From the NCBI GenBank assembly GCA_014239155.1, contig JAAZZQ010000088.1:62001-126000 (forward strand): 64,000 nucleotides of DNA, written 5' to 3'. The position numbers and the translations under genes are program-made. This stretch comes from Lachnospiraceae bacterium. Its GTDB lineage: Bacteria > Bacillota > Clostridia > Lachnospirales > Lachnospiraceae. This document shows, piece by piece, positions 16,868 to 55,701 of the stretch (position 1 is its first letter; each line of letters opens with the position of its first letter). Below the pieces are notes generated by a model. It made no database searches. It had not been told where the DNA came from and saw only the letters and a program-made list of their open reading frames with translations.

Positions 16868-17349
16868 TACCATTTCCAACTGCCTGTCCTCCCCGATTAT
16901 CTAAAAAGAATCTATATTTTCGCTATATCAACATATCTCACAATGTATTATTTTATTACAAGCGCGCATTTATGATCCTTAAGGATTTTTAGTACACAAC
17001 TTTAACTGCTCCAAACTGCCTGAAACTGATTATAGAAAAAAATCTTAATGCTGAAACTGCCCGAAACTGCACAATTCTAACCAAAAGGTAACTATGCCAC
17101 AATAAAGTGCGTACTTTTATTTTTAATTATTGCAACTTATACTAAATATAGACCAAATGAGGTTATACTGTCAAAGGGTTTGACAGCAAAAATCAATCAA
17201 CAGTTTAAGGAGGTCTAAGCATAAATATTTTAGAGTTCATAAAACAACACAGGTCAATTATTTGGAATACTGCAATGGAGACTATCCGCAGAGCAAGCCA
17301 AGAAAAGCCGCACGATATCTGATTATTCATTGAATTTGGAGGTGACACG
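16868..17349. other. Intergenic region with short direct repeats and a start-less mini-frame
   Basis: AAACTGCCTGAAACTG near 17012 recurs as AAACTGCCCGAAACTG near 17053. AAGGAGGT at 17208-17215 is followed by a 33-codon frame (N-I-L-E-F-I-K-Q-H) beginning with ATA at 17220 and ending at a TGA near 17321. It has a perfect ribosome-binding site but no legal start, so it looks like a decayed gene. The promoter of the downstream operon probably lies near the AT-rich 17120-17190 stretch. Confidence 0.35.
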
Positions 17350-17982
17350 ATGGATGCACAAACTTGTTTAAAAAAACTGCAATATGTCGGAGTATTAAAT
17401 TTTGCAACAGTAGACAAATTTGGAAAGCCACAGATAAGAAATATTAGCGCAATCCATTATGAAGAACAATCCATGTATTTTTTTACTGCAAGGGGTAAAT
17501 CCTTTTGCGAAGAATTACTTGAAGATGGCAACGTTCAGATATTGGGTTACACAAAATACAAAGAGATGATAAGACTGTCTGCAAAAGTTGAAAGAGTATC
17601 CGATGATGAACAGAAAAAATGGATTGATTTAATCTTTGAAGAACAGCCTTATTTGTCAAATGTCTACCCTGATAACACAAGAGAAATCGGCATTATTTTT
17701 TGTATTAGAAATGCAGCAATAGAGTATTTTAACCTTGGAGTCAATCCAATTTTTCGTGAAAATTTTTGTATTGGCAATGCCATAGTAAACGAGAAAGGAT
17801 ACTATATATCCGAAAGCTGTATTGGTTGTGGAAACTGTGTAAAAAACTGCCCGCAACAGTGTATTATATCTGGTAAACCTTATCAAATTGTACAGGAGCA
17901 TTGTCTTCATTGTGGAAATTGCGTGGAAAAATGTCCTGTGGGAGCAGTTAAAAAGCGAGGAATATCAAATGAATCAGAGTGA
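17350..17982 (+). CDS. Pyridoxamine-oxidase-like flavoprotein fused to 2x[4Fe-4S] ferredoxin
   Basis: 210 residues. Residues 1-135 are a split-barrel FMN-binding (PNPOx-like) domain, with V-L-N-F-A-T-V-D and G-K-P-Q-I-R-N near the start. Residues 150-200 carry two [4Fe-4S] motifs: Cys157/160/163/167 and Cys185/188/191/195, each C-x2-C-x2-C-x3-C-P. Start ATG 17350 follows GGAGGTGA. The product could pass electrons between a ferredoxin pool and a flavin; the substrate is unknown. The gene overlaps the macrodomain gene by 14 bases, so this redox protein is translationally linked to an ADP-ribosylation pair. That association recalls oxidative-stress-linked SirTM operons. Confidence 0.88.
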   Translation: MDAQTCLKKLQYVGVLNFATVDKFGKPQIRNISAIHYEEQSMYFFTARGKSFCEELLEDGNVQILGYTKYKEMIRLSAKVERVSDDEQKKWIDLIFEEQPYLSNVYPDNTREIGIIFCIRNAAIEYFNLGVNPIFRENFCIGNAIVNEKGYYISESCIGCGNCVKNCPQQCIISGKPYQIVQEHCLHCGNCVEKCPVGAVKKRGISNESE

Positions 17983-18802
17983 AAGAAGAAACTATCTTAT
18001 ATATAGTCTTTTAGACGAACAACCACAATATAAAAACATTATTGCACAGCAATTATGCGAACATAAGCAAGAAATGAAACGAATTGCAAATAATTTATAC
18101 AGCATTCCAACAGATGTGAAGGAACAAAAGAAACTATTGCGCGCATTGTTTAATGTGCGTATGCCACAGAGTATCTCAGAAGAATTTTTAAAGATACAAG
18201 ACGAGTATCTACAAAAGGAACTCTCAGAAAAGGGAATTGTAAATCTCTCTGATTTACAGAAGATACAGAAAGATATTTATCTATGGCAGGGAGATATTAC
18301 AAGGTTAAAGGTAGACGCCATTGTCAATGCAGCCAATAGTGGAATGACAGGGTGCTACCAGCCGAATCATACTTGCATAGACAACTGTATCCATACATTT
18401 GCAGGGGTACAATTAAGGCTTGCTTGTGCAGAGATTATGGAGCAGCAAGAGGGTGATGAACCTACTGGACAGGCAAAAATCACGCTTGGCTATAATCTGC
18501 CCTGCAACTATATTCTGCATACAGTAGGACCAATTGTCAATGGAGAATTAAACGACAAACACTGTGAACAGCTTGCTTCTTGCTATCGGTCTTGTATGGA
18601 ACTTGCAGAAAAAAATAACTGTAAAAGTATTGCGTTTTGCTGTATCTCAACGGGTGTCTTTTGTTTTCCAAATGATAGGGCCGCAGAGATTGCTGTACAG
18701 ACAGTAAAGCAATACAAAAGGAAAACATTCAGTAAAATGGAGGTGATATTTAATGTCTTTCAAAATAACGACTATGAAATATACAAATCCTTGCTTGAAT
18801 GA
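17969..18802 (+). CDS. Zinc-type macrodomain protein-ADP-ribose hydrolase
   Basis: 277 residues. An all-helical amino part (about 1-95) precedes a macrodomain: G-D-I-T (109-112), V-D-A-I-V-N-A-A-N (115-123), then G-C-Y-Q-P-N-H-T-C-I-D (128-138). Cys129, His134 and Cys136 are likely zinc ligands of the Zn-macro class; H-T-V-G-P and S-I-A-F-C-C-I-S-T-G-V-F complete the ADP-ribose pocket. This class removes mono-ADP-ribose placed by SirTM sirtuins. ATG 17969 (GCGAGGAA upstream) lies inside the end of the preceding gene; a longer upstream frame only reads the ferredoxin gene out of phase. The sirtuin gene starts within its last 50 bases. Confidence 0.9.
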   Translation: MNQSERRNYLIYSLLDEQPQYKNIIAQQLCEHKQEMKRIANNLYSIPTDVKEQKKLLRALFNVRMPQSISEEFLKIQDEYLQKELSEKGIVNLSDLQKIQKDIYLWQGDITRLKVDAIVNAANSGMTGCYQPNHTCIDNCIHTFAGVQLRLACAEIMEQQEGDEPTGQAKITLGYNLPCNYILHTVGPIVNGELNDKHCEQLASCYRSCMELAEKNNCKSIAFCCISTGVFCFPNDRAAEIAVQTVKQYKRKTFSKMEVIFNVFQNNDYEIYKSLLE

Positions 18803-19637
18803 GCTGGATACATCAGAGAAAATAATGCAATTAAAGAGCAAAATAGAAAATGCAGATGCTATCTTAATTGGCGCTGGAGCGGGACTTTCCACTTCTGCCG
18901 GATTCCTTTATAATGGAGAGCGGTTTCAGCAATATTTTAGTGACTTTATTGAAAAATACCACTTCCATAATATGTATGAGGGCGGTTTCTATCCTTTTGA
19001 TACTTTGGAGGAATATTGGTCGTATTGGAGCAGATACATTTATATCAACCGCTATATGGATGCACCAATTCCAGTTTACCAAAAACTGTTTCAACTGGTT
19101 AAGGACAAAGATTACTTTGTATTGACAACAAACGTAGACCATTGCTTTCAAAAGACCAATTTTGCAAAAGAGCGATTATTTTATACACAGGGAGATTATG
19201 GACTATTCCAATGCCAGACGCCATGTAATCCATACACTTACGATAATGAAGCGCAGGTTCGGCGTATGATGGCAGAACAAAAAGACATGCGTATTCCAAC
19301 CGAATGCATACCAAAATGCCCAATTTGCGGCAAACCAATGACTATGAATTTAAGGGCAGATTCTACCTTTGTAGAAGATTCCGGCTGGAATATTCATGCG
19401 GAGTATTACAAGCAATTCCTCAATAAACATAAACGAAGCAAAATATTATTTTTGGAATTAGGTGTGGGATATAATACCCCCGGAATTATTAAATATCCCT
19501 TTTGGCAGATGACAACAAAAAATAAAAATTCCACATATATTTGTATCAATAAAGGTAACGTATCTGTTCCGGCAGAACTTCATTCTCGGTCCATTAGTAT
19601 AGATTCTGATATCTATAATGTGTTATGTTGCCTGTAA
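18753..19637 (+). CDS. SirTM-type sirtuin, probable protein ADP-ribosyltransferase
   Basis: 294 residues. The NAD-binding motif is G-A-G-A-G-L-S-T-S-A-G (40-50) and T-T-N-V-D-H lies at 125-130. At the place of the sirtuin catalytic His-Gly the protein reads T-Q-G-D-Y-G with Gln146, a hallmark described for class M sirtuins, which transfer ADP-ribose rather than deacetylate. Cys154, Cys158, Cys189 and Cys192 are plausible structural zinc ligands. The ATG follows GGAGGTGAT and lies inside the macrodomain gene (50-base overlap), so the writer and eraser are made from one message. Known SirTM targets are lipoylated GcvH-L proteins; neither GcvH-L nor a lipoate ligase is encoded nearby, so the target here is open. 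Confidence 0.88.
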   Translation: MSFKITTMKYTNPCLNELDTSEKIMQLKSKIENADAILIGAGAGLSTSAGFLYNGERFQQYFSDFIEKYHFHNMYEGGFYPFDTLEEYWSYWSRYIYINRYMDAPIPVYQKLFQLVKDKDYFVLTTNVDHCFQKTNFAKERLFYTQGDYGLFQCQTPCNPYTYDNEAQVRRMMAEQKDMRIPTECIPKCPICGKPMTMNLRADSTFVEDSGWNIHAEYYKQFLNKHKRSKILFLELGVGYNTPGIIKYPFWQMTTKNKNSTYICINKGNVSVPAELHSRSISIDSDIYNVLCCL

Positions 19638-49331: not shown

Positions 49332-50327
49332 CTACAGAATACCACATATTTGTTCTATTTTATGTAACTCTTCATCACTAAACTTTTGCTTAGACAACAT
49401 ACCTACATTGTCGATAATCTGTGCAGGTTTTGATGCTCCGATTAGAACGCTTGTAATATCGCCATCTCGTAAAATCCATGCAAGTGCCATTTGTGCAAGA
49501 CTCTGCCCTCGCTCTTTTGCAAGTTCATTTAACCCCCTAATCTTACGGATTGTGTCAGTGTTAAGCGCATCTTCCTTTAAAAATCTACCGTCCGTGCGGA
49601 TACGACTGTCTTCTGGAATGCCATTAACATATCGATCTGTAAGAAGTCCTTGCGCCAACGGGCAAAACGTAATAATACCAATTCCATTAGAAGCTGCATA
49701 ATCCTTTAATCCATCTTTTTCTATTGTTTTATCGAACAGAGAATATTTTCTTTGATTGATAATAAACGGTGTCCCCATCTGCTGAAAAAGACTTGCAATT
49801 GTAATTGTCTCCTCTTTATTATAATTTGAAATTCCAATATAAAGCGCCTTTCCACTGCGCACAATCGCATCCAATGCCCTTGCAGTCTCCTCTACTGGTG
49901 TATTATAGTCGGGTCTATGGTGATAATAGATATCAACATAGTCAAGTCCCATCCGCTTTAGGCTCTGATCTAAGCTTGCCACCAAATATTTTCTACTGCC
50001 TCCATCTCCATAAGGTCCTTTCCACATATCATATCCTGCCTTGGTGGAAATCACCAACTCATCCCGATAGATGCCAAGCCCTTTCTCAAGAATATGTCCA
50101 AAATTCTCCTCCGCCGCACCATAGACGGGACCGTAGTTATTTGCCAAATCAAAATGTGTGATTCCATTGTCAAAAGCAGTATAGCACATTGCCTGCATAT
50201 TGTCGAAACTGGCATTGGAGCCAAAATTGTGCCATAACCCAAAAGAAACTGCTGGCAACTTTAAGCCACTCTGCCCACAACGATTATATTGCATTGCTTC
50301 ATATCGTTTATCATCAGCTATATACAT
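49332..50327 (-). CDS. Aldo/keto reductase, YghZ/glyceraldehyde-phosphate-reductase type
   Basis: 331 residues. The TIM-barrel catalytic tetrad is visible as D-L-A-N-N-Y (Asp and Tyr of the tetrad), the Lys in S-T-K-A-G-Y and the His in Y-Y-H-H-R. R-Y-S-L-F-D, F-C-P-L-A-Q-G-L-L-T and I-L-R-D-G-D-I-T-S-V-L-I-G-A-S are typical of the AKR14-like family that includes YghZ. It reduces aldehydes with NADPH. ATG 50327 has GGAAAGGA at good spacing; the TTG six codons upstream overlaps that site. Confidence 0.9.
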   Translation of the reverse strand: MYIADDKRYEAMQYNRCGQSGLKLPAVSFGLWHNFGSNASFDNMQAMCYTAFDNGITHFDLANNYGPVYGAAEENFGHILEKGLGIYRDELVISTKAGYDMWKGPYGDGGSRKYLVASLDQSLKRMGLDYVDIYYHHRPDYNTPVEETARALDAIVRSGKALYIGISNYNKEETITIASLFQQMGTPFIINQRKYSLFDKTIEKDGLKDYAASNGIGIITFCPLAQGLLTDRYVNGIPEDSRIRTDGRFLKEDALNTDTIRKIRGLNELAKERGQSLAQMALAWILRDGDITSVLIGASKPAQIIDNVGMLSKQKFSDEELHKIEQICGIL

Positions 50328-50777
50328 ATTATAATTCCTTTCCAAATAAGTTTATTATCTACAATTATTTTATTTTACACCTTATATTATCTTAAAACAG
50401 TTTGTTAACAAAAGCAACAAGAACAAATACACTTCTCATGGTAAGCGGCATAATATACTATGCTTATTTGTAAGAGTTGCCTGCCCAAAACAAAAATGGA
50501 CAAAACAGGGACGCGATCAATCGGCACTTCAGTTAATCATGTCTTTTTTATTTCTTTTCATCTGGTACAATATTGTAAATCTGAAAAAGTAACCTAAGAG
50601 ACCAGCAAAGAGACCATGAGTGAAAAGATTAAGCATATACTGAAAAGCGAAATACAACAGACGTAAAAAAGCCATAATGAAAAGGAGCCGGTTACTGACT
50701 TGAAAGCTCAAAAGGTTCATGGTAGTATGAAGATATAAAACTAATTCTAAAGTACAATCTAAAAAGGAGGGGTTCTT
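50328..50777. other. Intergenic region with a doubtful minus-strand small frame
   Basis: About 450 bases. A minus-strand frame at 50720-50529 would encode a hydrophobic 63-residue peptide but has no ribosome-binding site. On the plus strand TTGAAA near 50700 and TAGTAT 17 bases later could be the promoter for the zinc-ribbon gene; AAAAAGGAGGGG precedes that gene. Confidence 0.35.
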
Positions 50778-51029
50778 ATGCCAAAATGTCCATCCTGTGG
50801 TTCTTCAATGGTAAAGCGTAATGGTCGATATGGTGAATTCTGGGGATGCTCTAAGTACCCAAATTGTGAAACAACTGTTAGTCTAAATGATATTGACGAT
50901 GAATTTGATGTTCCGCAATACAGCCATCATGGACCATCATATGGAACTTGTTGGAGATGTGGTGAGCAGGATACTTTAAGTGAGGAGGGGCTATGTAGTT
51001 ATTGCCAACATATGTTGGAAAAGGATTGA
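50778..51029 (+). CDS. Small zinc-ribbon protein (topoisomerase C4 zinc-finger type)
   Basis: 83 residues. Residues 4-30 are a C4 finger of the kind found at the end of topoisomerase I: C-P-S-C-G-S-S-M-V-K-R, G-R-Y-G-E-F-W-G-C-S-K-Y-P-N-C. A second pair, C-W-R-C-G and C-S-Y-C, at about 60-77 forms another metal site, with Y-S-H-H-G-P between. Such stand-alone proteins may bind single-stranded nucleic acid. ATG 50778 has a strong AAGGAGG, and a terminator follows. Confidence 0.85.
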   Translation: MPKCPSCGSSMVKRNGRYGEFWGCSKYPNCETTVSLNDIDDEFDVPQYSHHGPSYGTCWRCGEQDTLSEEGLCSYCQHMLEKD

Positions 51030-51074
51030 TAAAACGCCAAGGATATAAAATTTTGGTTTGTCTGTAAAATAGTA

Positions 51075-51107
51075 AAAAACAGAGATTCAAAAGAACTCTG
51101 CTTTTTT
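51075..51107 (+). terminator. Terminator of the zinc-ribbon gene
   Basis: AAAAACAGAG and CTCTGCTTTTTT form a short G-C hairpin (CAGAG/CTCTG, loop 11) flanked by an A tract and a T6 run. Confidence 0.75.
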
Positions 51108-51250
51108 GTGCGTAAAATTAAACGCATTACTTGACAATACTGTATACATTTAATGCATTTATCGTAGTACTAGTATTCTATACAATCCTATGATACAATA
51201 GAAATAAATTTTTATAAAATACAAAACTGCAAAGAAAGGCATGATAACAA

Positions 51251-52375
51251 ATGACTGCACTTTTTGATGAGCGCGTGGACAATGCGATCCAGATTATATG
51301 GTTTGACAGAGACTTTGCACGGCGTGAAGAAGCACTTTCTATGCTTCGTTCTGCTGCCAATATGGGTGATGGAGATGCTTATTACTTTCTTGGACGCTGT
51401 TATCTTGGAAAAAGTTATGTGGATCCAGTGATGGAAATGCCCCTTGACCCACAATTTGCTTTTGAGTGTCTTCGTACCAGTCTAACACTTGAAAGTGCTG
51501 TTGGTATGTTTGGCGCTATCCATCAAGATGGATTTGAACCGCCAAATAATACATTTGTCCATCCTCCCTACCACTCGAAAAAAGAACTCTGGGACGTTGT
51601 TTCCGAAAAAGCATCACAAGGGCATATTTTCTGTAAATATTTGATTGCAAATGCCTATTATTATGGCACAGTTGGCGACTTTTTGGACCTTACACCTGCA
51701 CATATTGGCAGCAAAAAATATGAGCGCTTTCAATATGAATGGATTGCAACTGCCATGCGGCTCTACGAGGTGTGCGTCGCAGCCGGACTCGGCATTGCAA
51801 TTCCAAATCTGGTAGATATTCTTCGCACTGGAAAACATGGTGCGCCAGTACAAAACCAGCGGGCAAAAGGCTATATTCAAAAAGGCGCCGATATGGGAAT
51901 CGGCGCATATGAACGCATTGTCGGCAATCAGTACCGCGATGATGGCAAACTTACAAAAGCCGTTGAGTTGTATGAACGCGCACTGTCACATAAAGATGAC
52001 TACGCCTATTATTGCCTTGGCAAACTCTATACCTTTAATGGTGTACTGCCTCTGGATTTAAAAAAGGCACTGTCCTATCTGGAGGAGGGATATTCTCGGC
52101 TTCCAGATGACGCGGGCTTTTGCAACTTGTTGGGCGAAATCTATTTTCGCGGAGGACAAGATATTCTGCCAGATTACAATCAGGCATTTCTGCTGTTGAG
52201 CAAAGCATATTTTAAAGGCAGCACATGGGGCTCTGACATGCTGGGCACCTGTTATCTCAACGGATTAGGAACTAAGACAAACTTAAATATGGCACAGAAA
52301 CTTTTTGAATTGCATCCGAAAAAACCACTCGCCGCAGGGGGCTTAAAGCGCCTGCGGCGGTCAGGTACAGATTAA
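51251..52375 (+). CDS. Sel1-like/TPR repeat protein
   Basis: 374 residues, soluble. Sel1-type repeats recur: A-A-N-M-G-D-G-D-A-Y-Y-F-L-G-R-C-Y (about 36-52), A-Y-Y-C-L-G-K-L-Y and L-L-G-E-I-Y-F-R-G-G near 255-300, and G-S-D-M-L-G-T-C-Y-L-N-G-L-G-T near 335. Each has the S/G-A-x-x-x-L-G-x-x-Y spacing. These modules mediate protein-protein contacts. The first 130 residues also contain a D-G-F-E-P-P-N segment outside the repeats. The ribosome site AAAGGC is modest. It is monocistronic and converges with the GH43 operon. Confidence 0.75.
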   Translation: MTALFDERVDNAIQIIWFDRDFARREEALSMLRSAANMGDGDAYYFLGRCYLGKSYVDPVMEMPLDPQFAFECLRTSLTLESAVGMFGAIHQDGFEPPNNTFVHPPYHSKKELWDVVSEKASQGHIFCKYLIANAYYYGTVGDFLDLTPAHIGSKKYERFQYEWIATAMRLYEVCVAAGLGIAIPNLVDILRTGKHGAPVQNQRAKGYIQKGADMGIGAYERIVGNQYRDDGKLTKAVELYERALSHKDDYAYYCLGKLYTFNGVLPLDLKKALSYLEEGYSRLPDDAGFCNLLGEIYFRGGQDILPDYNQAFLLLSKAYFKGSTWGSDMLGTCYLNGLGTKTNLNMAQKLFELHPKKPLAAGGLKRLRRSGTD

Positions 52376-52388
52376 TCTTAACAGTTCA

Positions 52389-52499
52389 GCCTTTGGCTTC
52401 CTGTTACAAGCATCAAGCCGTGCATAATCGCTTCGCGATGGCTTGATGCATCTCAACTACTACGCTTTCCCACGGACTTTGCAGCGCAGTGCAAAGTCC
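52389..52499. repeat. Repeat family 3 with double hairpin, between convergent genes
   Basis: Two perfect ten-pair hairpins lie in tandem: GCATCAAGCC (52410-52419) with GGCTTGATGC (52440-52449), whose loop contains CGCTTCGCG, and GGACTTTGCA (52474-52483) with TGCAAAGTCC (52490-52499). They probably stop transcription of both converging units. The first element recurs in part at 49277-49310. Confidence 0.7.
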
Positions 52500-52516
52500 T
52501 GTCTCAACTGATACGA

Positions 52517-54055
52517 TTAATCTCTATATTCAAAGTAGTCAAAATCTGCTGGTATTCGTGTGCCACAACCTCCATTGTTGGCATAAATGCCAACTAGAGT
52601 TCCTGTGTGGCGCTTGGGGTCGTCAGGGACACCCTCATCACAGAGATAAATACAATTTTCAAGCACGCCAGCAAGCATCCAATCCGCACCGTCATAACTG
52701 TAATAAAAACTTCTAGTAAGTCGCTCTACCACAACTTTCAGATAGACGCTTTGCTCTTTTATTTCATCGACGGATGCGATTAACTCCTCGCCATGATTGC
52801 GGTTGATAACCAATTGCAATTTTCTCCCTTCTTCATAGCAGAGAGAAAATCTTGCGTAAGTCGCTGTACTGTAATAGCAGGTAAGTCCCGCCTGCTCTCC
52901 ATTTCTGGATGGATAAAAATCAACTTTGGTTGAAGCAGTATAATTCAACTCTTGTTCCCGCCGCACAAGTGTATTTTTTGCACGGATTTCTGAGAGCTGT
53001 CCATCTCGTGTCCAAATACGAAAATATCCGGGTCTCTCTGTCAGCGAATAGCTTCCTCTTGCTGGATTGCGTACAAATTCCCAATTTAAATTTAATTTTT
53101 CACTGTCAAAATCGTCCCGCGTCCATTTTTCAAATAGATGTTGTGGAAGATCTGGCGCCGTCTGTTTTGTGCTTGGCCCTTTCCTGTCATTGATAATAAA
53201 CCAGTCATCCTCAAGCCATGTAACCGGGTCCAGACCAGATTCCCTGCCAATTGTTGTGTAATGCCCCTGATTGGGTCTTCCCATTAGATAATATACCCAC
53301 CAATCGCCATTCTGTGTCTCAATTAACTTGCCATGCCCTGTCCGCTGGATTGGTGCATCTGGATCAAACTGGCGCATTAATGGATTGTAAGGCGACGGCT
53401 CATAAGGTCCGAACAAACATTTGGAACGCCCAACATTAATCCCATGCCCATAACCAGTTCCCCCCTCTGCAAGTATTGCATAATAGTATTGACCGCGCTT
53501 TAACAGATGTGGTCCTTCTGGGCAGCGCTCCCCGGTTCCCGACCACACTGAAATCTTTTCCCCAACCACTTTTGTGCAATCATCACTTAATGGCACCAGA
53601 TTGATACCGGGGCTAATCACCATATAATGCTTTCCGTCCTCATCCACAAAATGCGATGGGTCAATGCTGTCAACTTCCAACCAACTTGGTTTGCTGTAGG
53701 GTCCTTCTGGCTTTTCTGAAGTAACCACAAGCTGTCTGCGCATAACGTTATTATCGCGCTTTCCATCTGCATTAAGCCGTAGAGTCGCCATAATAATAAA
53801 CTTGCCGTTACAATAAGAAATGTCCGGTGCCCAGATACCATGCGAATCCCTAATATCCTGTAAATCTAATTCATCCGGGTCTGTAACAGCATGTCCAATC
53901 ACATGCCAGTGCACCATGTCTCTAGAATGGCTAATGGCAATTGCTGGAAAATACTGAAACGTAGAATTGACCATGTAATAGTCTTCCCCGACACGCACAA
54001 CAGACGGATCGGGAAAAAAACCTCTCTGTACTGGGTTTTGATAAGTATTGCTCAT
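52517..54055 (-). CDS. GH43 glycoside hydrolase (beta-xylosidase/arabinofuranosidase), intracellular
   Basis: 512 residues, no signal peptide. A five-bladed propeller (about 1-320) has the GH43 catalytic triad: base Asp in F-F-P-D-P-S (about 14-19), pKa-tuning Asp in S-I-D-P-S-H-F-V-D and acid Glu in C-P-E-G-P-H-L. The carboxy beta-sandwich (about 325-512; D-D-F-D, L-T-C-Y-Y, F-Y-Y-S-Y-D-G) is the XynB-type domain. It should release xylose or arabinose from short oligosaccharides inside the cell. ATG 54055 follows TTGGAGGA, 29 bases after the second GH43 gene. Confidence 0.92.
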   Translation of the reverse strand: MSNTYQNPVQRGFFPDPSVVRVGEDYYMVNSTFQYFPAIAISHSRDMVHWHVIGHAVTDPDELDLQDIRDSHGIWAPDISYCNGKFIIMATLRLNADGKRDNNVMRRQLVVTSEKPEGPYSKPSWLEVDSIDPSHFVDEDGKHYMVISPGINLVPLSDDCTKVVGEKISVWSGTGERCPEGPHLLKRGQYYYAILAEGGTGYGHGINVGRSKCLFGPYEPSPYNPLMRQFDPDAPIQRTGHGKLIETQNGDWWVYYLMGRPNQGHYTTIGRESGLDPVTWLEDDWFIINDRKGPSTKQTAPDLPQHLFEKWTRDDFDSEKLNLNWEFVRNPARGSYSLTERPGYFRIWTRDGQLSEIRAKNTLVRREQELNYTASTKVDFYPSRNGEQAGLTCYYSTATYARFSLCYEEGRKLQLVINRNHGEELIASVDEIKEQSVYLKVVVERLTRSFYYSYDGADWMLAGVLENCIYLCDEGVPDDPKRHTGTLVGIYANNGGCGTRIPADFDYFEYRD

Positions 54056-54084
54056 ATAAAATCCTCCAATCTAATCAATTATTG

Positions 54085-55701
54085 CTACTTCGTAGAATAT
54101 GTGACAGAATCGATCACTGCATAGCCAGTATGTTCTTTTTCTATAGCACCTGCATAAGTACAGAACACTCCATTTTTGACACCTACCCAGCGCCCGGGAA
54201 CAGCGTTCATCTCGCCTGCTTTTTGGTAATTTTCTCCATCTGTACTGTATTCCATTGTCACAAGCTCAAGCGGAAATGCCTTCTCCTTGTCATTTAGGTC
54301 CTGCGTTCCAACACACTTTACCACATATTTTATATAAAGTTCCCCCGCCTGATTCCAGTTAATTTTAGGAAGATACCTATTTGCTGTCTCCTGCACTGTC
54401 TCTGGCAATACTTTTCCATAATTCTGTACACCCAGTATAAAACATGGCAAAAGCCAATCTCCCTCCTTTCGGAAAGTGAGCACCCCATACCGCATTCCCA
54501 TAGAAATAATGCCTGCCTCTTCCCCATCCATAAGATGGGAAAGATTTAATTTTGTAATACAGATAAATTCTGGCGCTGGCCACTTTTGCAGCAAAAGATT
54601 TGGCAAATCTCCATAAACCGTTTCTAAATGGACCGCATTCAATTGCAATTCGCTTCCTGTAAGCTTATACCAGTCTTTTTGCGGATTTGCATTCCACTGC
54701 CATTGTAATCCTAGTGTCTCTTGCGTAAAATCATCGGAAGTATCTGGTTCGCATATCTGTGCAGTTACATGTCCTACATTGGGCTTATGGTATTGCGTCA
54801 CTGGCTCTCCATAATCATTTCCCTCCTTGGCAATTCCAATTATTGGCCAATCGTTATGCCAGCTCATAGGTTGTAGATGTGTAATACGCCCCGCTGCGTA
54901 AACATCCTGAAAATGAAGAAACCAATCTTCTCCGGAAACGGTATCCACCCATGCACCCTGATGTGGTCCATTTACAGCACTGCTGCCCTGACGCATCACA
55001 ACCTTATATTCATAAGGACCAAACACATTTTTGGAACGAAGCACTGTCTGCCACCCAGTCTTTACACCGCCCGCCGGGGCAAAAATATAGTACCAACCAT
55101 TCTTTTTGTACATTTTAGGACCTTCTATAGTCTCTTGATCATTCTCATTTCCGTCAAAAATTTTGACTGCATCGCCAATTAACCCCATTCCATTTGGCTG
55201 CATCTCAACCATATGAAGAACACTCTTGTAACCAATACGACTTTTTGCTACACCAGCGACTAGATATGCTTTTCCGTCATCATCCCAAAAAGGACAAGGG
55301 TCAATCCACCCTGAACCCGGGCGAATATTAACTGGTTTTGACCAAGTCCCAAAAGGATCTGTTGCAGTGCACATATAGATTCCTTCATCTGGCATAGGAA
55401 AGCAGACAAAATATGTCCCCTTATGATACCGAATTGCCGGCGCCCACACACCACATCCATGAATTGGTACTTTGTAGCGCTCTTCTGGGATTTCACTAAT
55501 AATATAGTTCACTACTTTCCAGTTAACAAGGTCCTTTGAGTGGAGCAAAGGAAGCCCGGGAGCATTACAGAAACTTGACGCAATCATAAAATAATTCTCA
55601 CCCACACGGATCGCATCTGGGTCTGAGTAGTCTGCATAGAGAATTGGATTTCGGTAGTTTCCATCTCCAATATCTGCCTTCCAAAGATTGCTTGCAATCA
55701 T
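54085..55701 (-). CDS. GH43 glycoside hydrolase (GH43_12-like), intracellular
   Basis: 538 residues, no signal peptide. The propeller shows D-Y-S-D-P-D-A-I-R (base Asp near residue 27), G-W-I-D-P-C-P-F-W-D-D-D-G and the acid Glu in T-I-E-G-P-K-M. A carboxy beta-sandwich begins near D-D-F-T-Q-E-T-L-G-L-Q-W-Q-W-N (about 335). It differs from its neighbour enough to suggest complementary linkages. Start ATG 55701 follows AAGGTAGG. It is the first gene of a two-gene operon divergent from an AraC regulator. Confidence 0.92.
   Translation of the reverse strand: MIASNLWKADIGDGNYRNPILYADYSDPDAIRVGENYFMIASSFCNAPGLPLLHSKDLVNWKVVNYIISEIPEERYKVPIHGCGVWAPAIRYHKGTYFVCFPMPDEGIYMCTATDPFGTWSKPVNIRPGSGWIDPCPFWDDDGKAYLVAGVAKSRIGYKSVLHMVEMQPNGMGLIGDAVKIFDGNENDQETIEGPKMYKKNGWYYIFAPAGGVKTGWQTVLRSKNVFGPYEYKVVMRQGSSAVNGPHQGAWVDTVSGEDWFLHFQDVYAAGRITHLQPMSWHNDWPIIGIAKEGNDYGEPVTQYHKPNVGHVTAQICEPDTSDDFTQETLGLQWQWNANPQKDWYKLTGSELQLNAVHLETVYGDLPNLLLQKWPAPEFICITKLNLSHLMDGEEAGIISMGMRYGVLTFRKEGDWLLPCFILGVQNYGKVLPETVQETANRYLPKINWNQAGELYIKYVVKCVGTQDLNDKEKAFPLELVTMEYSTDGENYQKAGEMNAVPGRWVGVKNGVFCTYAGAIEKEHTGYAVIDSVTYSTK

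Follow-up and report, generated by a model that had tools for sequence, protein, structure and literature searches.

A SirTM and zinc-macrodomain pair in the surviving half of a decayed ACGX peptide operon, and a candidate SirTM target beyond GcvH-L

Three intact genes and their identity

The DNA analysed here, referred to as the window, is a stretch of 64,000 nucleotides from a gut bacterium of the Lachnospiraceae (assembly GCA_014239155.1, contig JAAZZQ010000088.1, positions 62,001 to 126,000 of the forward strand). The assembly is 4.57 Mb in size and 98.4% complete. Three genes, designated P, M and S, and a series of relics upstream of them are listed in Table 1. All three ORFs are open; P and M overlap by 14 bases and M and S by 50. 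Since the 50-base overlap recurs in many relatives, the starts assigned to M and S in the window are supported. An earlier note on this DNA had described the same three genes and overlaps, with Gln replacing the catalytic His of the sirtuin and a zinc motif in the macrodomain, and the ORFs, profiles and motifs all agree with that description.

Table 1. Genes and relics in the window (positions are those of the window)
Feature	Position	Strand	Basis
Operon-leader relic; the leader precedes the ACGX peptide gene in relatives	17083..17163	+	blastn
Probable remnant of the ribosome-binding stretch that preceded the ACGX peptide gene; deletion junction	17189..17214	+	blastn, weak
Relic of the nitroreductase gene, 5' end, start codon lost	17207..17258	+	blastn
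Relic of the nitroreductase gene, 3' end, different frame	17262..17330	+	tblastn
P: fusion of PNPOx-like flavin domain and 2[4Fe-4S] ferredoxin domain, 210 aa	17350..17982	+	profile searches, model
M: zinc-dependent macrodomain, protein-ADP-ribose hydrolase family, 277 aa	17969..18802	+	ATG start; NCBIfam
S: class M sirtuin (SirTM), 294 aa	18753..19637	+	alignment to 5a3a, motifs

In profile searches P matches PNPOx_N with 35.4 bits (cut-off 28.1) and Fer4 domains as well, and two CxxCxxCxxxC motifs are found at residues 157 and 185. Its predicted model (mean pLDDT 89.7) is nearest to a NimC/NimA-family protein and to other PNPOx-type flavin folds (2ig6, E 1.6e-9). M scores 363 bits against NCBIfam NF003163, protein-ADP-ribose hydrolase (cut-off 272). 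It has the features of a Zn-macrodomain, the zinc motif CYQPNHTC at residue 129 followed by Dx3H (DNCIH) at 138; the C-x4-H-x-C motif is present in 69 of 70 relatives. The best solved relative of S is SpySirTM (PDB 5a3a, E 4e-69). Residues Asn127, Gln146 and Arg201 of S align to Asn118, Gln137 and Arg192 of Rack et al., and GVGYNTP at residue 237 matches the class motif GVGx[NT]TP. Judged by these features, namely Gln for the catalytic His, the conserved Asn and Arg, and the class motif, S is a class M sirtuin. The genetic linkage to a Zn-macrodomain that goes with this class is present too, M overlapping S. Neither P, M nor S has a match in PADLOC-DB 2.0.0 at E 1e-5, and P has none in a phage collection at 1e-10.

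Relics of a lost upstream half

The earlier note took P to lead the operon. In close relatives, by contrast, P follows a gene for a peptide with ACGX repeats, a gene for a radical SAM/SPASM maturase and, usually, a nitroreductase gene, and is itself followed by M and S. Traces of this arrangement, the operon leader and parts of the nitroreductase gene, are preserved in the window directly upstream of P, within 17083-17330, and are absent from the earlier note. Six of eight close relatives match the leader within 17077-17163 with 79-87% identity (blastn, E 7e-13 to 3e-17), and in the remaining two comparisons (L204 and L205) the contigs begin too late for a full leader. The probable remnant of the ribosome-binding stretch gives a match that is weak taken alone (E 0.006 to L198 and 0.9 to L202), and it stands in the right order. 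The 5' relic of the nitroreductase gene translates in frame and is matched with E values of 1e-4 (L202) and 0.006 (L198) by blastn; the 3' relic was recovered by tblastn of the nitroreductases of three relatives against the whole window (E 3e-6 to 1e-5). The middle of the nitroreductase gene is deleted.

When the peptide and the maturase were compared with the window by tblastn no match was obtained, and the window's genome has no match to the maturase family TIGR04340 at E 1e-80. Thus the two components that define an ACGX system, the ACGX-repeat peptide (acgA, TIGR04341) and the TIGR04340 maturase (acgM), are both encoded in relatives upstream of the nitroreductase and P, and the window has neither. 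The deletion junction falls in AAGGAGGT, which is common to both ribosome-binding sites; this suggests that the peptide and maturase genes went in a deletion between short homologous stretches. We are confident that P-M-S in the window is the 3' half, still intact, of an ACGX operon that has lost its 5' half, comprising peptide, maturase and nitroreductase.

The dN/dS ratios of P, M and S against close relatives are about 0.02-0.12 where computable, no higher than among intact operons. Codon rates cannot date the deletion. As dS is near saturation and the relics can still be recognised, the loss may postdate most of the divergence over which dN/dS was computed. The peptide being gone, P-M-S in the window either has some other target or is on its way out.

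A second decayed ACGX operon was seen at L071 (G171:C18), where the maturase gene is in pieces and M and S are kept together with an HxlR-type gene; no P and no nitroreductase were found at this locus. A further locus, L083, has P and S and gave no match for peptide, maturase or nitroreductase.

The complete operon in relatives

A scan of named genomes with an alignment of P (16 rows) yielded 365 relatives. The best 80 were retained, and counts based on them apply to the P clade closest to the window and not to P homologues at large. Within the best 80 of 365, 55 loci extend 4 kb or more upstream of P; all of these contain the maturase, 50 the peptide and 41 the nitroreductase. On the other side of P, S is present in 55 of the 68 loci with at least 2.2 kb downstream, accompanied by M in 39 of those 55, and the remaining 13 have neither S nor M. 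These 13 P loci, and four others (L184, L295, L299 and L300), are ACGX operons lacking SirTM in the stretch fetched, and could serve as natural controls for the contribution of the S-M pair.

Two maturases were compared with NCBIfam TIGR04340 ('radical SAM/SPASM domain protein, ACGX system') and scored 562 and 583 bits (cut-off 400); two peptides scored 39.5 and 99 bits against TIGR04341 (cut-off 28). An assignment of the maturase to the pVip defence proteins was rejected, its score there (53 bits) being far under that for TIGR04340. Haft and Basu are said to have described the ACGX system in silico.

In the first sample the locus closest to the window is L036, whose P and S are 84% and 81% identical to the window's. 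It has a divergent HxlR-type regulator, the ACGX-repeat peptide, maturase, nitroreductase, P and S in that order; M does not adjoin this operon and lies on a different contig of the same genome. An HxlR-type regulator is the commonest neighbour, present in 45 of the 80 loci (best 80 of 365) and nearly always divergent. The one tested is an HxlR protein by Pfam and resembles the redox regulators RrpA and RrpB, with scores below their cut-offs. The next commonest neighbour, an ABC ATPase, occurs in only 10 of the same 80 loci, so that no export gene is a constant part of the operon. Names on the records of P-locus carriers include Coprococcus comes, [Ruminococcus] faecis, Ruminococcus turbiniformis, Eisenbergiella, Hungatella, Blautia and Oscillospiraceae. 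The RefSeq annotation of plasmid NZ_CP135163.1 of Roseburia sp. 831b lists a complete operon at 49970-54166, with acgA, acgM, a nitroreductase, a 4Fe-4S protein, a protein-ADP-ribose hydrolase and Sir2.

Linkage in the family, genus and phylum

The family sample consisted of 200 genomes from 199 genera, the window's genome included; genome tallies of linkage leave that genome out and refer to the 199 others. Of the 200 genomes, 126 have a SirTM-like match at E 1e-5, 88 a Zn-macrodomain at 1e-40 and 48 a P homologue at 1e-20. Around the family matches 120 regions were fetched and searched for the P, M and S families and for recurring neighbours. The order P-M-S recurs in these regions, often with a radical SAM protein and at least one nitroreductase upstream of P.

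The earlier note linked the flavin/ferredoxin fusion to the SirTM pair and named a lack of clustering elsewhere as grounds for refuting its reading. The linkage is supported, and the reading is not refuted on that ground: across the 200 family genomes P lies within 6 kb of S or M at 34 of 53 places, and does not at the other 19. This tally used 53 of 54 P rows, the second segment of one ORF in G091 being omitted, and S rows of E 1.4e-61 or better (down to G154:C31) plus one fragment (G198:C71), and weaker tandem SirTM paralogues are thus uncounted. The maturase occurs at 25 places in the same sample, 14 of them within 6 kb of S and 13 within 6 kb of P; taken together, 16 are near S or P and 9 near neither. 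S is found in 21 of 24 genomes carrying the maturase versus 63 of 175 others (Fisher 2e-6, uncorrected for relatedness in a sample of almost one genome per genus).

In a sample of the phylum the maturase is present in 8 of 398 genomes. Five of these eight loci have P and four have both M and S, with S in one of these (L298) either a fragment or cut by the end of the stretch. Within the window's genus P was found at 1e-15 in 11 of 38 genomes, the window's included, and all six other carriers in the genus whose P is at least 67% identical have the maturase. Divergence runs in parallel among maturase, P, M and S, whose pairwise distances were correlated across 34 loci (r 0.49-0.74; none of 2000 permutations as high). 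Of 34 P homologues below 58% identity, 19 have S or M nearby and only one has the maturase nearby, and P-M-S linkage therefore exists also without the peptide. On a tree of 158 SirTM sequences, any longer than 345 aa trimmed to the last 345 residues, the ACGX label (which also counts maturase fragments of at least 60 bits within 6 kb) changes 25 times. The mean for shuffled labels is 50.8 and none of 500 shuffles was as low; at 25 changes, the linkage of ACGX and SirTM has often been gained or lost.

Comparison with known SirTM systems

In Rack et al. 2015 (PMC4518038), the extended SirTM operon of Lactobacillales and Staphylococcaceae encodes GcvH-L, LplA2, a Zn-macrodomain, SirTM, OYE and LLM. 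According to that study, GcvH-L was the only one of the operon proteins tested that SirTM modified, prior lipoylation strongly stimulated the modification, the macrodomain reversed it, and OYE binds lipoylated GcvH-L; the flavin proteins figure as partners that are not modified (PMC4518038). Ariza et al. 2024 (PMC11490716) name GcvH-L as the only known target of a SirTM, the targets of the others being elusive, and report that Zn-macrodomains from lone pairs and fusions fail to demodify GcvH-L and that Zn-macrodomains can cleave both acidic-residue-linked and cysteine-linked ADP-ribose. In S. aureus, the iron-limitation RNA IsrR has been reported to raise the operon (PMC11257911).

The extended operon shares with the window its writer and eraser families, overlapping genes and flavin-type oxidoreductases encoded in the operon, and complete ACGX operons resemble it further in having a small carrier-like substrate and the enzyme that modifies it (PMC4518038). 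Unlike it, the window and the ACGX operons have no GcvH-L, LplA2 or OYE/LLM; in their stead relatives have the ACGX peptide, the radical SAM maturase, the nitroreductase and the PNPOx-ferredoxin protein, the first three of which the window has lost. The lone SirTM/Zn-macrodomain pairs of Enterococcus faecalis, Treponema pedis and others (PMC11490716) are the same pair with no GcvH-L; unlike them, the pair in the window is linked to P, and its counterparts in relatives are linked to an operon for a radical SAM peptide. A search of open-licence papers found no link between ACGX and SirTM or Zn-macrodomains. As far as this search reaches, the complete ACGX operon is an undescribed kind of extended SirTM operon, one without lipoylation.

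The absence of GcvH-L and lipoate ligase nearby, stated in the earlier note, extends to the whole assembly: searches with PF01597 (GcvH) and TIGR00545 (lipoate ligase) gave no match, and the GcvH-L and LplA2 that mark the extended operon are thus neither in the operon in the window nor matched in its genome. In the family sample, full-length GcvH (28 places in 27 genomes, E 5.7e-30 or better) occurs in only 12 of 84 SirTM genomes, and by coordinates none of the 28 places adjoins a SirTM. Weaker GcvH matches of about 19-27 bits cover just part of the model, and we take them to be biotinyl/lipoyl-like domains. The note's overall reading of the locus holds in part: the SirTM/Zn-macrodomain pair has no lipoyl carrier and is linked to P, but this is not the whole story, as the upstream genes have been lost.

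The target of the SirTM/Zn-macrodomain pair

By role, the parts of the ACGX operon are a substrate with repeated cysteines and acidic spacers, a modifying enzyme, flavin-type oxidoreductases, an eraser and a writer. Because these roles parallel those of the GcvH-L operon, the matured peptide is proposed here as the target of SirTM; argued by analogy, this is possible but rather unlikely. The peptide would be a more natural counterpart of GcvH-L than P is. In a complete operon the radical SAM/SPASM enzyme would modify the repeated Ala-Cys-Gly-X units of the small peptide, which would presumably remain intracellular. The nitroreductase and P may supply the maturase with electrons, or exchange them with the modified peptide. 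SirTM would then attach ADP-ribose to acidic or cysteine residues of the matured peptide, switching it off, and the Zn-macrodomain would remove the ADP-ribose. The logic would be that of the GcvH-L/LplA2/OYE/LLM/Zn-macrodomain/SirTM operon with a ribosomal peptide replacing the lipoylated carrier. It suggests that ADP-ribose, used as an on/off tag, may control such cysteine-repeat peptides.

For the locus as a whole, a decayed ACGX operon together with switching of the matured peptide by SirTM and the Zn-macrodomain is the best explanation that we can offer, and it is a tentative one. A broader form, in which the ACGX peptide is an intracellular redox carrier switched by reversible ADP-ribosylation and SirTM/Zn-macrodomain pairs generally act on dedicated carriers (lipoyl-GcvH-L in Bacilli, ACGX peptides in Clostridia), we consider unlikely. 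In any case the ACGX operon supplies a concrete, small, co-encoded candidate target for SirTM beyond GcvH-L, and the orphan ACGX peptide gains a possible regulator and redox partners. The window, in which the tail of the operon survives the loss of the peptide, provides a natural test for a second target of the pair. Several observations count against the peptide as target: 63 of 84 SirTM-bearing family genomes lack the maturase, M-S outlives the peptide in the window and at L071, and some ACGX operons have neither S nor M (13/68), just as some maturase places are near neither S nor P (9/25). To these are added the 25 changes of the ACGX label on the SirTM tree, the P and S of L083 with none of the upstream genes, and the distant P homologues, which lie near S or M more often than near the maturase.

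The chief rival to the peptide as target is that M-S is a self-standing module, either regulatory or addiction-like with SirTM harmful and the macrodomain its antidote, which joins many redox operons; the target would lie elsewhere and the ACGX operon would be merely a frequent neighbour. This is a serious possibility, if still a doubtful one. Of the 90 family genomes with S or M, 81 have both, while the maturase is in only 24, and the survival of M-S through operon decay in the window and at L071 points the same way. Where S has no adjoining M, in five genomes (G184, G042, G041, G028 and G091), M is on another contig, and four of these five loci have P beside S. The pair also has a second recurring context, with an Rrf2-type regulator, an NAD(P)H-binding/SDR protein and a short PNPOx-family protein, seen on plasmid pTS1 of Treponema saccharophilum (L309), on a plasmid of Enterococcus casseliflavus (L310) and at L042, L098 and L102. 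These neighbours, mostly tied to that context, are absent beside the window genes. Against an independent module stand the frequency of S in maturase genomes, far above that in the rest, the correlated distances of M, S, P and maturase, the tight operon structure with its overlapping genes, and the lack of a PADLOC match for P, M and S.

It is improbable that P itself is the target of SirTM or the source of a redox signal. P is beside S or M at most of its places, even with no maturase near, and P-M-S is what the window retained; however, many SirTM loci have no P, which is near S in 33 of 101 S loci (a shortfall due in part to contig ends), and over a third of the P places, the 19 of 53 given above, are not near S or M. 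In the known operon, moreover, the flavin proteins are partners, GcvH-L alone being modified (PMC4518038). That P-M-S in the window is a functionless leftover in the course of decay is likewise quite improbable. The window has lost the peptide, the maturase and most of the nitroreductase, and L071 has decayed as well, but P, M and S are intact, the leader is kept and dN/dS is low, with the qualification that the deletion may be too young to tell. A target of the staphylococcal kind, a GcvH-type lipoyl protein whose gene lies elsewhere in the genome, is favoured only by the class of the enzymes and is so remote, given the lack of GcvH and TIGR00545 ligase in the genome and the rarity and separate location of GcvH in SirTM genomes, that it is rejected here, unless both genes happen to lie in the part of the genome left unassembled.

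Other arrangements of SirTM-like genes

Tandem SirTM-like genes were seen at L103 and L126-L130, with no macrodomain directly adjoining the pair; at L103 a separate S-M pair lies about 3 kb away. In most of these tandem pairs one copy has Asn/Gln/Arg and the other Asn/Glu without the Arg. Such a pair is possibly a writer with a degenerate partner. Several of the pairs adjoin an Rrf2-type regulator. At L079 (G128:C97, 1936-3477) a single ORF of 513 aa matches both macrodomain and SirTM models. It could be a bacterial macro-SirTM fusion or else an artefact, since its macro portion is not full length and the assembly, 69% complete, contains masked stretches. The window's own genome has a second, distant Sir2-like gene (L152, G000:C41:65871-66587) with 28% identity to S. 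It shares similar gene surroundings with L153 (G196), the two being from two species of the genus, and both have Cys/Cys/Leu at the three SirTM catalytic columns, where the alignment is unsure.
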